Origin: Clostridia bacterium
Lineage (GTDB): Bacteria > Bacillota > Clostridia > Oscillospirales > Acutalibacteraceae
Assembly (NCBI GenBank): GCA_017471765.1
Contig: JAFURT010000010.1
Location: 1-41,069, forward strand
Direction of reading: 5' to 3'
Length of the DNA stretch: 41,069 nt
Shown here piece by piece: positions 20,560 through 40,938 of this stretch; the first letter of the stretch is position 1, and every line of letters starts with the position of its first letter. Under the pieces are notes generated by a model. That model saw only the letters and a list, made by a program, of their open reading frames with translations. It did not search any database and was not told the DNA's origin. A program made the position numbers and the translations under genes.

Positions 20560-23271
20560 TTATTTCAGGGCGGCCATAGACTGCTCCAGCAGGGTCAGCT
20601 TCTCCTGCAGCTGGGCCGCCTGTTCCCGGGCACCGTTAACCACGGCCTCGGGGGCCTTGTCGGTGAAGGCCTTATTGTTCAGACGGGCCAGCACGCCGTC
20701 CAACTGCTTCTGCACGCCTGCGTGCTCCTTTTCCAGACGGGCCAACTCAGCGGCCTTATCCACCAGGGCATCCATGGGAATCTTGATGGTGGCGGCGGCG
20801 GTGACAATGCTCACGGCGCCCGGCACCTCAAAGTTATCCCCGATGTGCACCTCAGCGGCAGACGCCAACCGCTGCAGGAAGGGTACACCGGCGGTGAAGG
20901 TGTCGCCAAAGGTGGTCTCGATGAACAGATCCGCCTTCTTGGAGGGGGGCACGTTCATCTCGGCACGGCGATTGCGGATACCACGGATGGCCTCCATGAT
21001 GCGCTCCATCTCCTTCTCCTCGGTGGGGAAGGACAGGGCGGCGTCGTACACCGGCCAGGGGGTAACCATCAGGCTGTCACCCTCGTGGGGCAGAGCCTGC
21101 CAGATTTCCTCAGTGATGAAGGGCATAAAGGGATGGAGCAGGTGCAGCATACCGTTCATCACGTACAGCAGGACACGACGGGCGCTGTCAGCGCCATCCC
21201 CCTGCAGACGGGACTTGCACAGTTCGATATACCAGTCGCAGTAGGTGTCCCAGATGAACTCATACAGCTTATTCACCGCGATACCCAGCTCAAACTTCTC
21301 CAGGTTGTCGGTGACCGCCTGTACAAGCTCATTGTACCGGGACAGCACCCACTTGTCCTCCAGCGTCAGGTCGGCCGGCAGGGTCAGGGCGACCTCGTGG
21401 CCTTCCAGGTTCATCCGCAGGAAACGGGCGGCATTCCACAGCTTGTTGGCGAAGTTCCGGGAGGCCTCCACCTTATCGGTCATATAGCGCATATCGTTGC
21501 CGGGGCTGTTGCCGGTGGCCAGCATAAAGCGCAGAGCGTCGGCACCGTACTTGTCGATCTCCTCCAGGGGATCCACGCCGTTGCCCAGGGACTTGGACAT
21601 CTTGCGGCCCTGGCTGTCACGCACCAGGCCGTGGATGAGCACCGTCTTGAAGGGGCTCTTGCCGGTGTAGGCCAGGCCGGAGAAGATCATCCGGCTGACC
21701 CAGAAGCCGATAATATCGTAGCCGGTGACCAGCGTGTCGGTGGGATAGAAGTAGTCCAGCTCCTCGGTGTGCTCCGGCCAGCCCAGGGTAGAGAAGGGCC
21801 ACAGGGCGGAGGAAAACCAGGTATCCAGCGTGTCGCTGTCCTGTGTCAGGTGGGTGCTACCGCACTTGGGACAGACAGCCGGGGCTTCTTTGGCCACCAC
21901 CGTCTCGCCACAGTCGTCGCAGTACCAGGCCGGGATGCGGTGTCCCCACCACAGCTGACGGGAAATACACCAGTCACGGGTGGCACGCATCCAGTTGAGA
22001 TAGTTCTTGGTGAAGCGCTCGGGAACGAAGGTGATCTCACCCTTCTCTACCGCCTCGATAGCCGGGCCGGCGAGGGGCTCCATCTTGACGAACCACTGCT
22101 TGGACACCATCGGCTCGATGGTCTGGTGACAGCGGTAGCAGGTGCCCACATCGTGCTTCAGATCTTCGGTTTCTTTCAGATAGCCGCCGGCCTCCAGGTC
22201 GGCGAGGATGGCCTTGCGGGCCTCCATGGTGGTCATACCGGCATACTTGCCGCAGTCCAGCACGGCCGGCTCGTCGGCGGCCGCCTTACCGGAGGCGATG
22301 TACTCGTCAGCGGCGGCCTTGTCGGCGGCACCGGTCATGTGGCCGTCGTAGGTGAACACCCGTACCATGGGCAGGTCGTGACGGCGACCCACCTCAAAGT
22401 CGTTGGGGTCGTGGGCGGGGGTGATTTTCACCACGCCGGTACCCTTGGTCATGTCGGCGTGCTCGTCGCAGACGATGGGGATTTCCTTATCCAGCAGGGG
22501 GAGAATTACATGACAGCCGTGGAGGTGCTTGTAGCGCTCATCCTCGGCGTTGATGGCCACGGCGGTATCACCAAGCATAGTCTCCGGACGGGTGGTGGCC
22601 AGCTCCAGCTGTTCACCGGTCTCCTTGACGGTGTACAGCAGGTGCCAGAAGTGGCCGTCCTTCTCCTCGTATTCCACCTCGGCATCGGAGATGGAGGTGT
22701 TACAGGTGGGACACCAGTTGACCATCCGGTTGCCACGGTAGATGAGTCCCTGCTCATACAGGCGGATGAAGACCTCCTTCACCGCCGCGGAGCAACCCTC
22801 GTCCATGGTGAAGCGCTCCCGCTCCCAATCACAACTGGAGCCGATGGTCTTCAGCTGGCTGACGATGCGGCTGCCGTACTTCTCTTTCCATGCCCATGCA
22901 CGCTCCAGGAAGCCGTCACGACCCAGCATTTCCTTGGTCAGCCCTTCCTCACGCATGGCCTCGACCACCTTCGCCTCGGTGGCGATGGAAGCGTGGTCGG
23001 TACCGGGCATCCACAGGGCCTCATAGCCCTGCATCCGCCGCCAGCGGATGAGGATATCCTGCAGGGTGTTGTCCAGGGCGTGGCCCATGTGCAACTGGCC
23101 GGTGATGTTGGGGGGCGGCATCATGATGGTGTAGGGCTTCTTTTCCTCACCCTTGTCGTTTTTGGCGTGGGCGGTGGCATGGAAATAGCCCCCATCCAGC
23201 CAAAACTGATAAATGCGCTTTTCTACCTCGCGAGGGTCATACACCTTTGCGAGATCTTTACTTTCTGCCAT
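20560..23271 (-). CDS. valS: Valine--tRNA ligase
   Basis: Class I aminoacyl-tRNA synthetase charging tRNA-Val and editing Thr. The 903-residue product has HMGH (61-64) and KMSKS (about 556), a CP1 editing insertion between them, a WCPTC zinc-binding-like segment, and a C-terminal coiled coil that closes with LEQSMAALK, as usual for ValRS. It lies 32 bases after metG on the same strand, so they are probably co-transcribed. A poor site (AAAGGA, about 12 bases away) precedes the ATG. Confidence 0.97.
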   Translation of the reverse strand: MAESKDLAKVYDPREVEKRIYQFWLDGGYFHATAHAKNDKGEEKKPYTIMMPPPNITGQLHMGHALDNTLQDILIRWRRMQGYEALWMPGTDHASIATEAKVVEAMREEGLTKEMLGRDGFLERAWAWKEKYGSRIVSQLKTIGSSCDWERERFTMDEGCSAAVKEVFIRLYEQGLIYRGNRMVNWCPTCNTSISDAEVEYEEKDGHFWHLLYTVKETGEQLELATTRPETMLGDTAVAINAEDERYKHLHGCHVILPLLDKEIPIVCDEHADMTKGTGVVKITPAHDPNDFEVGRRHDLPMVRVFTYDGHMTGAADKAAADEYIASGKAAADEPAVLDCGKYAGMTTMEARKAILADLEAGGYLKETEDLKHDVGTCYRCHQTIEPMVSKQWFVKMEPLAGPAIEAVEKGEITFVPERFTKNYLNWMRATRDWCISRQLWWGHRIPAWYCDDCGETVVAKEAPAVCPKCGSTHLTQDSDTLDTWFSSALWPFSTLGWPEHTEELDYFYPTDTLVTGYDIIGFWVSRMIFSGLAYTGKSPFKTVLIHGLVRDSQGRKMSKSLGNGVDPLEEIDKYGADALRFMLATGNSPGNDMRYMTDKVEASRNFANKLWNAARFLRMNLEGHEVALTLPADLTLEDKWVLSRYNELVQAVTDNLEKFELGIAVNKLYEFIWDTYCDWYIELCKSRLQGDGADSARRVLLYVMNGMLHLLHPFMPFITEEIWQALPHEGDSLMVTPWPVYDAALSFPTEEKEMERIMEAIRGIRNRRAEMNVPPSKKADLFIETTFGDTFTAGVPFLQRLASAAEVHIGDNFEVPGAVSIVTAAATIKIPMDALVDKAAELARLEKEHAGVQKQLDGVLARLNNKAFTDKAPEAVVNGAREQAAQLQEKLTLLEQSMAALK

Positions 23272-29201: not shown

Positions 29202-29235
29202 AAAAACAGCGGGGCTTGGTTGCTCCGCTGTTTTT
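29202..29235 (+). terminator. Terminator of the yloU-fakA pair
   Basis: An 11-bp stem (29202-29212 with 29225-29235) ends in a T-run, about 85 bases after the fakA stop. Confidence 0.8.
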
Positions 29236-29250
29236 GGTAAATTTATATGC

Positions 29251-29307
29251 GAAACAACCCCTCAGGCAGACTGGCGCCTGCCAGCTCCCCTTGCACAGGG
29301 GAGCCTT
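29251..29307. repeat. Left inverted repeat of the DUF559-ASCH cassette
   Basis: The block starts ACAACCCCTC, contains the hairpin CTGGC/GCCAG (29271-29284) and then the perfect hairpin GCTCCCC-TTGCACA-GGGGAGC (29284-29304). The right-hand block at 30070-30116, reversed, starts ACAACCCTCC and has CCCTCCC-TTGCACA-GGGAGGG. The outer ACAACCC, the two-hairpin order and the TTGCACA loop are kept while the stems covary, so selection seems to act on structure. Confidence 0.8.
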
Positions 29308-29321
29308 ATGGAGGCTTGCCT

Positions 29322-30068
29322 ATGCAACGAAAGCATAACAAACAACTAACTCCGATAGCCAAACGGTTGCGAAAAACAATGACAAAAGAAGAACGACATC
29401 TGTGGTATGATTATCTGCAACGGTATCCGGTTCGGTTTTATCGCCAGAAGGTTTTGGGAAACTATATTGCTGATTTTTATTGTGCTTGTGCAAAGCTGGT
29501 GTTGGAGTTAGACGGTTCTCAACATTTCAAAGAGGAAGGTTTGTGGAGGGATGCACAACGGACACGGTACTTAGAGGAATATGACCTGCTTGTTGTTCGC
29601 ATCCCCAACAACGAGGTGAACAGAAATTTCAGAGAGGTGTGTATGTATGTGGATTTGTTGGTGAGGCAAAGAACCCAAGGAACGGTTGCTCCACTTGGTC
29701 GGCAGATTGTTGAGCATAATATGCGCTTGAATCCTTCCCCGTTTGAAAAAATAAACAGTGGGCAAAAGACAATCGAACTTCGTTTGTTTGATGAAAAACG
29801 TCAGCAAGTTCAAGCTGGCGATAAGATTGTTTTTACCAATTCTGCTACCGGAGAAACGCTTAAGGTCACAGTTGTGAAATTGCATCGGTTCGATACCTTT
29901 GATGAATTATATAAGGCTCTGCCTTTAACACGGTGTGGATACACAGATGAAAATGTTGATAAAGCAACACCTGCTGATATGGAACAGTATTATTCTGTCG
30001 AAGAACAGAAAAAGTATGGTGTTGTAGGCATTGAATTTGAAATAACAGATAAAGCGGAGCACCCCTAA
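29322..30068 (+). CDS. DUF559 endonuclease-like domain fused to an ASCH domain
   Basis: A 248-residue fusion. Residues 10-115 form a DUF559 domain of the Vsr-like endonuclease fold, with IADFYC (D51), LELDGSQH (E62, D64, H68) and a Glu near 24. Residues 131-243 form an ASCH (PUA-like, RNA-binding type) domain with the signature SGQKTIELRL. They are joined by a short linker (116-130). ATG 29322 has GGAGG 7 bases upstream; the extension to 29247 runs through the left repeat. The gene fills the space between two inverted palindromic repeats, in which it sits tightly. The endonuclease activity is inferred; DUF559 proteins are mostly uncharacterised. Confidence 0.8.
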   Translation: MQRKHNKQLTPIAKRLRKTMTKEERHLWYDYLQRYPVRFYRQKVLGNYIADFYCACAKLVLELDGSQHFKEEGLWRDAQRTRYLEEYDLLVVRIPNNEVNRNFREVCMYVDLLVRQRTQGTVAPLGRQIVEHNMRLNPSPFEKINSGQKTIELRLFDEKRQQVQAGDKIVFTNSATGETLKVTVVKLHRFDTFDELYKALPLTRCGYTDENVDKATPADMEQYYSVEEQKKYGVVGIEFEITDKAEHP

Positions 30069-30069
30069 A

Positions 30070-30116
30070 AGCCCTCCCTGTGCAAGGGAGGGTGGCGGCC
30101 GTAGGCCGTCGGGAGG
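30070..30116. repeat. Right inverted repeat of the DUF559-ASCH cassette
   Basis: Starting 2 bases after the stop codon, it has the hairpin CCCTCCC-TGTGCAA-GGGAGGG (30072-30092), the second hairpin CGGCC-GTA-GGCCG (30096-30108) and the outer GAGGGTTGT. It is the inverted partner of 29251-29307. Confidence 0.8.
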
Positions 30117-30174
30117 GTTGTTCAAAGAATCAAGAGAGTTAAGAGAAAAGGCTCGTTGGGAAGAAGGAAATGGC

Positions 30175-40807: not shown

Positions 40808-40938
40808 ACCCCCGGTTTTACCGGGGGTAAAAGAATAGCTTTTAGCGAGGAGTAAAGTAGACAAAAAAGAAACACCCTGTTAAAGTAGAAGTGGTTTGCC
40901 GACCACACAACTAAAATAACAGGGAGGTTTTTAACGTG
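40808..40938 (+). mobile_element. Left end and leader of an IS200/IS605 element
   Basis: A terminal hairpin ACCCCCGG-N5-CCGGGGGT (40808-40828) is followed by a leader with the stem CCCTGTTA/TAACAGGG (40875-40882 with 40917-40924), which reaches the AGGGAGG ribosome binding site. It contains the inner hairpin GTGGT/ACCAC (40891-40895 with 40902-40906). Sequestration of the ribosome site by such a leader is known for IS200. The element continues beyond the window. Confidence 0.85.

Follow-up and report, generated by a model that had tools for sequence, protein, structure and literature searches.

Is a nuclease gene that lies packed between two inverted double hairpins the centre of a mobile system, comparable to the transposases that accompany REP palindromes? 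This question is raised by a DUF559-ASCH fusion gene of a Clostridia bacterium (Acutalibacteraceae; assembly GCA_017471765.1, 1.92 Mb, 78.6% complete). The stretch of DNA analysed, called the window in the following, comprises 41,069 nt (contig JAFURT010000010.1, positions 1-41,069, forward strand). As read directly in the sequence, the gene is enclosed by inverted double-hairpin blocks at 29253-29304 and 30071-30121. The left block lies on the - strand, on which it reads GGCTCCCC..GAGGGGTTGTT, and consists of an outer end AACAACCC (29253-29260), a variable hairpin with the arms GGCAG/CTGCC (29265-29282) and the perfect hairpin GCTCCCC-TTGCACA-GGGGAGC (29284-29304). The right block (+ strand) is inverted relative to the left one and runs from the perfect hairpin CCCTCCC-TGTGCAA-GGGAGGG (30072-30092) through a variable hairpin to the outer end GGGTTGTT (30114-30121). 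The perfect hairpins (hp1) have the 7-nt loop TTGCACA/TGTGCAA in common, the second hairpins (hp2) differ in sequence, and a repeat search of the window pairs the two block regions as inverted arms with 73% complementarity.

A double-hairpin caller, devised after these blocks had been seen, made 4 calls in the window (the two blocks and two weak ones); 8 Markov shuffles gave none or one in 41 kb. The two weak calls, at 20991-21033 and 40809-40850, are probably due to chance. The pattern ACAACCC-N20..45-CCTTGCACAGG matches 4 times in the 1.92-Mb genome, two of the matches being the window blocks, and its reversed control does not match at all. The inverted blocks that a first, sequence-only reading had described around the gene are therefore present beyond chance by both comparisons.

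The gene (29322..30068, + strand) encodes 248 aa plus stop. Its start was set by alignment with relatives, and a longer ORF from 29247 was set aside on the same homology. The start codon ATG at 29322 lies 17 nt past the left block and the stop codon TAA (30066-30068) 2 nt ahead of the right block, in agreement with the tight packing noted before. A GGAGG at 29310..29314 (+), 7 nt 5' of the start codon, may by its position act as Shine-Dalgarno sequence. Pfam matches of the protein are DUF559 (PF04480, E=2.8e-25) and ASCH (E=9e-10), with a further sub-threshold match to DUF3850; they are the sole DUF559 and the sole ASCH match of this genome. The DUF559 part (29322..29681, +) is a Vsr-like PD-(D/E)XK nuclease for which endonuclease activity is predicted from the family match and the intact catalytic motif DF..ELDG. 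A solved relative of this part is 3hrl, an 'Endonuclease-Like Protein' (E=4.5e-11). After the DUF559 part come a remnant similar to the C-terminal end of RlmD and the ASCH domain (29682..30065, +). The GC content, at 43% in the DUF559 part and 40% in the ASCH part, is lower than in the two neighbour genes (60% and 57%), as would be the case for acquired DNA. These neighbours encode a FakA/DAK2-like protein, whose gene is followed by a terminator-like hairpin with a T-run (29202..29235, +), and YmdB.

The absence of a transposase of known families, as stated by the earlier reading, was confirmed for the five proteins scanned at and around the locus, which contain no integrase domain either. Hairpin ends around one small gene could bring to mind an integron-like gene cassette or a known insertion sequence; given the missing enzymes and the orientation of the blocks, which are inverted and not direct as attC sites are, this identity is hardly credible. 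Several other identities were tried and rejected. Rfam gave 0 matches up to E=1, which discards a known RNA family. The best PADLOC matches to known defence genes (E=0.0026 for the window; DpdF, E=6e-7, for the relative L107) are both partial. A mainly phage-borne occurrence was discarded as well: six peptide patterns of the window protein, reaching close relatives only, had 0 matches in viral_contigs, and 3 of 50,697 phage records match, two of them being unverified gut contigs.

Inverted blocks around DUF559 genes of relatives

Whether DUF559 genes elsewhere are flanked in the same way had been proposed as a check. Loci were taken from the best 80 of 346 relatives in genome_contigs, ranked by protein similarity, 76 of which contain DUF559; to these were added 11 copies of the genus, 62 found in 150 genomes of the family, and 18 records of plasmids and phages. 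No DUF559 copy was obtained at 16 of the 184 loci. The upstream flank was locally aligned with the reverse complement of the downstream flank, with a score of at least 28 as cut-off. Of the DUF559 copies, 53 of 80 attained this score (1 of 81 was left out as it has no flank), as did 6 of 230 control ORFs from these loci. When the flanks were aligned without reversal, 24 of the 80 copies came to 28 or more.

A structural block caller based on hp1, hp2 and a GAGG tail was applied to 172 copies, of which 4 duplicate segments and 3 short ones were left out. Among the 165 distinct testable copies, 75 have blocks on both sides, as opposed to 2 of 301 control ORFs. DUF559 genes elsewhere thus have such flanks much more often than control genes. 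The 75 copies divide into 62 with the usual order, 6 with the reverse order (window included) and 7 with both blocks on the same strand. One-sided blocks only were called in 57 copies and no block in 33. A block on at least one side is found in 132 of the 165 copies and in 98 of the 301 control ORFs; 96 of the latter have it on one side only, partly because neighbour genes share a block. Since the caller was written after sight of part of the 80 loci, of the genus loci and of the plasmid and phage flanks, the family loci alone were unseen; there the usual order occurs in 23 of 60 testable copies and both-sided blocks in 0 of 44 control ORFs.

In the usual plan, a block is followed by the start codon, the gene and an inverted block, with hp1 outermost and the variable hairpin towards the gene. 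The left block ends at a median of 7 nt from the start codon (0-15 nt in 67 of 88), so that its GGAGGG could serve as ribosome site. The stop codon is located within or just past the right block in 40 of 73 cases. The motif DF..E.DG is present in 165 of 168 DUF559 proteins, and the GC content is lower than that of the neighbourhood in 155 of 161 copies. The second hairpin was also tested independently of the caller, by seeking a stem of at least 5 in the 36 nt that follow exact hp1 matches with distinct tails. For four hp1 classes it is present in 38/44, 26/27, 37/43 and 29/51 distinct tails, compared with 6-10% in shuffles and with 14/57, 6/29, 11/43 and 17/53 on the other side of hp1. Each class has 14 to 26 different hp2 arm sequences. 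The claim that the structure is kept while the stems vary is thereby borne out.

These results bear on the explanation by which the nuclease is a VSP-type repair enzyme that chances to lie in repeat-rich intergenic DNA and the blocks are hairpins of an ordinary kind, serving transcription or mRNA processing. The available part of a study on Caulobacter proposes a Vsr-like repair role for the DUF559 protein VsrA (PMC12907096), hp1 is followed by T's on its outward side in some relatives, and the control ORFs with a block on at least one side would fit this explanation too. It is nevertheless quite improbable in our view, because both-sided blocks are so rare in control genes of the same loci and because the hairpins are specific to nuclease clades, as described below. 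No terminator was called at the window blocks, by a scan weak enough to miss also the obvious terminator-like hairpin after fakA; it is therefore mainly the both-sides comparison that disfavours plain terminators. The frequent packing of DUF559 genes in gut bacteria points to a so far undescribed class of repeat elements that spread themselves.

Hairpin classes, gene-less copies and empty sites

A FastTree tree was calculated for 168 DUF559 proteins, of which 81 could be labelled with one of four nameable hp1 classes; the others were left out, 37 of them with a hairpin of no named class and 50 with no block called within 60-70 nt. The hp1 class changes 4 times on the tree, compared with 35-46 times in 200 shuffles, and for 80 of the 81 proteins it agrees with that of the nearest protein from a different genome. 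Copies within one genome or locus form 7 pairs of the same class and 5 of different classes. Nuclease clades and hairpin classes are accordingly paired, which would also be expected, in the absence of recognition, from inheritance of gene and blocks together as one unit.

Exact hp1 patterns of the four classes were found in 32, 21, 16 and 17 of the 150 family genomes and the reversed controls in none. Hairpin and DUF559 occur together in 31 genomes, the hairpin only in 20, DUF559 only in 9 and neither in 90 (Fisher 3e-11, for genomes that are not independent of each other). The number of hairpin copies per genome, including those flanking the gene, has a median of 5 with DUF559 (n=40) and of 0 without it (n=110). 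Eight of 48 genomes were counted as DUF559-negative, as their match either fell into the ASCH part or yielded no DUF559 (G030, G033, G064, G091, G092, G118, G147 and G157). Of the 110 genomes without DUF559, 20 hold the hairpin and 4 have at least 5 copies, two of these being 59% and 69% complete. In all four classes, copy numbers are higher in genomes with the cognate class than in the remaining DUF559 genomes (p = 1.2e-5, 1.8e-6, 0.011, with two cognate genomes only, and 1.6e-4). Non-cognate genomes that are rich in CTYGAG-class copies are G145 (37), G011 (30) and G141 (19).

Neighbouring hp1 copies within 200 nt, a spacing that leaves no room for a gene, were judged for orientation by eye among the listed places, with self-complementary CTCGAG matches excluded. 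They stand 41 times in the gene-like '+ then -' order, 6 times as '- then +' and 10 times on the same strand. As the gene-less pairs are mostly in the gene-like order, the dimers look like the element minus its gene. Three of them (L118, L119, L120) have a 9-nt spacer at the centre; L120 belongs to the window genome, in which it is the one gene-less pair beside further copies. Gene-less hairpin copies, which the earlier reading had proposed to count for the TTGCACA loop, are hence found in the family singly and as dimers, and they follow the presence and the class of the nuclease.

A different explanation of the dimers is that the DUF559 gene is a homing-type parasite which inserts at their centre, the dimers themselves being spread by other means. 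Vsr-like homing endonucleases are known. The gene occupies the position of the spacer, gene-bearing and gene-less dimers have the same outward plan, and the HEase model of PADLOC matches the relative L107 weakly (E=0.013). A homing parasite predicts, however, that the repeats are common without the gene, and in genomes lacking DUF559 copies are rare. We consider this explanation unlikely and prefer an element whose repeats depend on the nuclease.

Empty sites had been proposed as a further check and were found. By coordinates, the junction between fakA and ymdB is gene-free in 9 of 9 other same-genus genomes searched, with the matches 45-378 nt apart. The intergenic sequence was read for G001, G004, G007 and G008, and each of the four contains a terminator-like hairpin. 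Eleven DUF559 copies are present at other loci in 5 of these 9 genomes. In another genus, an element of G106 (L211, 2613-3105) is absent in G170, where the same two genes are separated by the remaining 69 nt, and one of the G106 repeats begins directly after a terminator T-run common to G170. Occupied and empty sites, a feature of transposable elements, thus both exist for DUF559 elements. No target duplication or exact junction pair was resolved at the compared sites because the flanks and junctions are too diverged.

Two very similar DUF559 elements (L110 and L111, on contig C26 of G006) are located about 2.3 kb apart and have an extra upstream hairpin segment in common; the pair looks like a recent duplication or movement. 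In Pectinatus brassicae (L065), two tandem DUF559 copies 0.6 kb apart are equally similar to the query.

Departures of the window copy from the usual plan

The window blocks are the reverse of the usual arrangement, with hp1 adjoining the gene. Besides the window, 3 copies have this order by the strict call (L047, L181 and the gut phage contig L164) and 5 by a broader count; in L034/L142 it was called on the left side. By eye, L047 also has inner blocks in the usual order. The second departure is the ASCH domain. No second intact DUF559-ASCH fusion was found in the 80 loci or the 150 family genomes. G091 has a match to residues 74-240 that is interrupted by two stops, and a renewed search there found no DUF559. 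The earlier view that the ASCH fusion is part of the system did not hold, as the fusion is absent from every other copy examined; ASCH thus stands outside the plan of the system.

With the ASCH parts of L006, L007, L008 and L010 the window ASCH part shares 71-75% identity, and with ASCH matches found in 3 of the 9 genomes of its own genus 51-55%. In L006 and L010 the ASCH part is fused to RlmD, and the residues before the window ASCH (RTQGTVAPLGRQI) align with RTAHVETVALLSRKI, the end of the RlmD part of L006. Judged from these alignments, the window gene looks like the product of a capture of the 3' end of an rlmD-ASCH gene, with loss of the usual right block. Because of the rlmD-ASCH-like fusion and the reversed blocks, the window element may by now be immobile or domesticated. 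A C-terminal fusion of the 23S rRNA methyltransferase RlmD to ASCH occurs in some Oscillospiraceae/Clostridiales (L006:1696-3441, L010:3-926).

For the window alone, the reversal of the blocks and their unlikeness in stem and type would also fit two single repeats that were inserted independently around a DUF559-ASCH gene which had lost its own blocks, the more so as single and paired repeats occur elsewhere in the same genome. This origin is possible, though less likely than not: pairs of the two block types of the window are, by eye, frequent in relatives, and the copies with reverse order named above carry the same arrangement. On balance, we hold it likely that the window locus is a derived representative of a REP-like mobile class, widespread and apparently undescribed, in which a DUF559 nuclease gene lies between inverted double hairpins. 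Such an element would have entered the fakA-ymdB intergenic region directly downstream of the terminator-like hairpin of fakA.

Comparison with REP systems and occurrence beyond Clostridia

REP-like palindromes are common bacterial repeats. The elements described here resemble REP/REPIN-RAYT systems in that their palindromes are short and extragenic, occur as inverted dimers and also without the gene, and border a nuclease gene to which they belong in kind. They differ in the enzyme, which is a DUF559 protein (PD-(D/E)XK, Vsr-like) and not an HUH Y1 transposase (IS200/IS605-like). Moreover, the blocks are double hairpins, start and stop codons often abut them or lie within them, and the window blocks, with the ends AACAACCC / GGGTTGTT, have no GTAG foot. 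The comparison with REP-associated transposases, as drawn from the window alone, is apt in the sense of 'works like' on account of the flanking excess, the empty sites and the gene-less copies that track the nuclease. It stands for the DUF559 family, while the arrangement in the window is untypical of it. The family probably represents a new REP-like system in which a PD-(D/E)XK nuclease takes the role of RAYT.

As to the mechanism, the DUF559 nuclease would recognise its own hairpins, probably in extruded or single-stranded form, and would cut at them. Repair or copying could then spread the block dimer to intergenic sites, with or without the gene. RAYT is thought to spread REPs in a similar manner. 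If true, the spread of hairpins by their own PD-(D/E)XK nuclease would mean that the same result for the genome can be reached by a different chemistry, and DUF559 would gain a suggested function. In the literature searched, from which most subscription papers and all bioRxiv preprints were excluded, no link between DUF559 and palindromic repeats was found.

RAYT is linked to one REP group. In the available part of their study, Di Nocera et al. (2013, PMC3733652) describe CGTC-tagged REPs, palindromes with a CGTC foot and a CCA tail but without known enzyme, and report that another group has no dedicated enzyme. By eye, the variable hairpin of many relatives' blocks can be read as CGTC-stem-loop-GCCA on the other strand, which makes an identity of the blocks with CGTC-REPs a lead; the window blocks show no clear CGTC foot, and the available text of that paper does not mention Firmicutes, Clostridi, Vsr or DUF559. 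YcjD, the DUF559 protein of E. coli K-12, detects Vsr in profile comparison and belongs to the same superfamily according to the accessible part of PMC1189080, and VsrA of Caulobacter is a Vsr-like DUF559 protein (PMC12907096); the accessible parts of both sources do not describe flanking palindromes.

Outside Bacillota, both-sided blocks were called in 3 of 16 records (Sphingobium L160, Sphingomonas L161, Novosphingobium L162) and one-sided blocks in another 3 of the 16, two phage contigs being left out. GC-rich hairpins were seen near the gene in more of the non-Bacillota records, by eye and without control. In E. coli, ycjD of L167 extends with its last codons into a repeat (2319-2358). This repeat, which we take to be Box C, is present in 5349 of 5426 genomes, where it occupies a median of 16 places per genome. 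The sphingomonad and E. coli cases come from few records without controls and are regarded as leads. Following them, DUF559/YcjD proteins could be the dedicated enzymes of pan-bacterial palindromic repeats, which would form a second REP system that does not depend on RAYT, with the window copy as a chimera that acquired ASCH. This wider reading, which we find quite possible and put forward tentatively, would take in the double hairpins of gut Clostridia, the similar blocks of sphingomonads and of further Alphaproteobacteria, and the Box C-like repeat at the ycjD end and, if true, would answer who mobilises transposase-less REPs. As DUF559 is present in E. coli K-12 as ycjD, the question is testable in a laboratory strain.

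Some of the genes outside Bacillota are located inside apparent operons. On plasmids of Sphingomonas parapaucimobilis, DUF559 genes lie between two NAD(P) transhydrogenase genes and between sufB and sufC (L161, L169), and in Deinococcus psychrotolerans (L172) between paaD and paaZ. The plasmid-labelled records NZ_CP141089.1, NZ_OL790696.1 and NZ_CP119142.1 have 2.2-4.9 Mb and are chromosome-like in size. A 106-bp deletion at the ycjD end of one E. coli strain was considered as excision of the repeat and rejected, as it lies between direct repeats. In the E. coli record L278, the 3' end of ycjD is in or beside a Box C-like repeat. The sapF-fabI interval of E. coli contains either ycjD or the eefRABCD efflux operon (L277), as described in the available part of PMC12817139.
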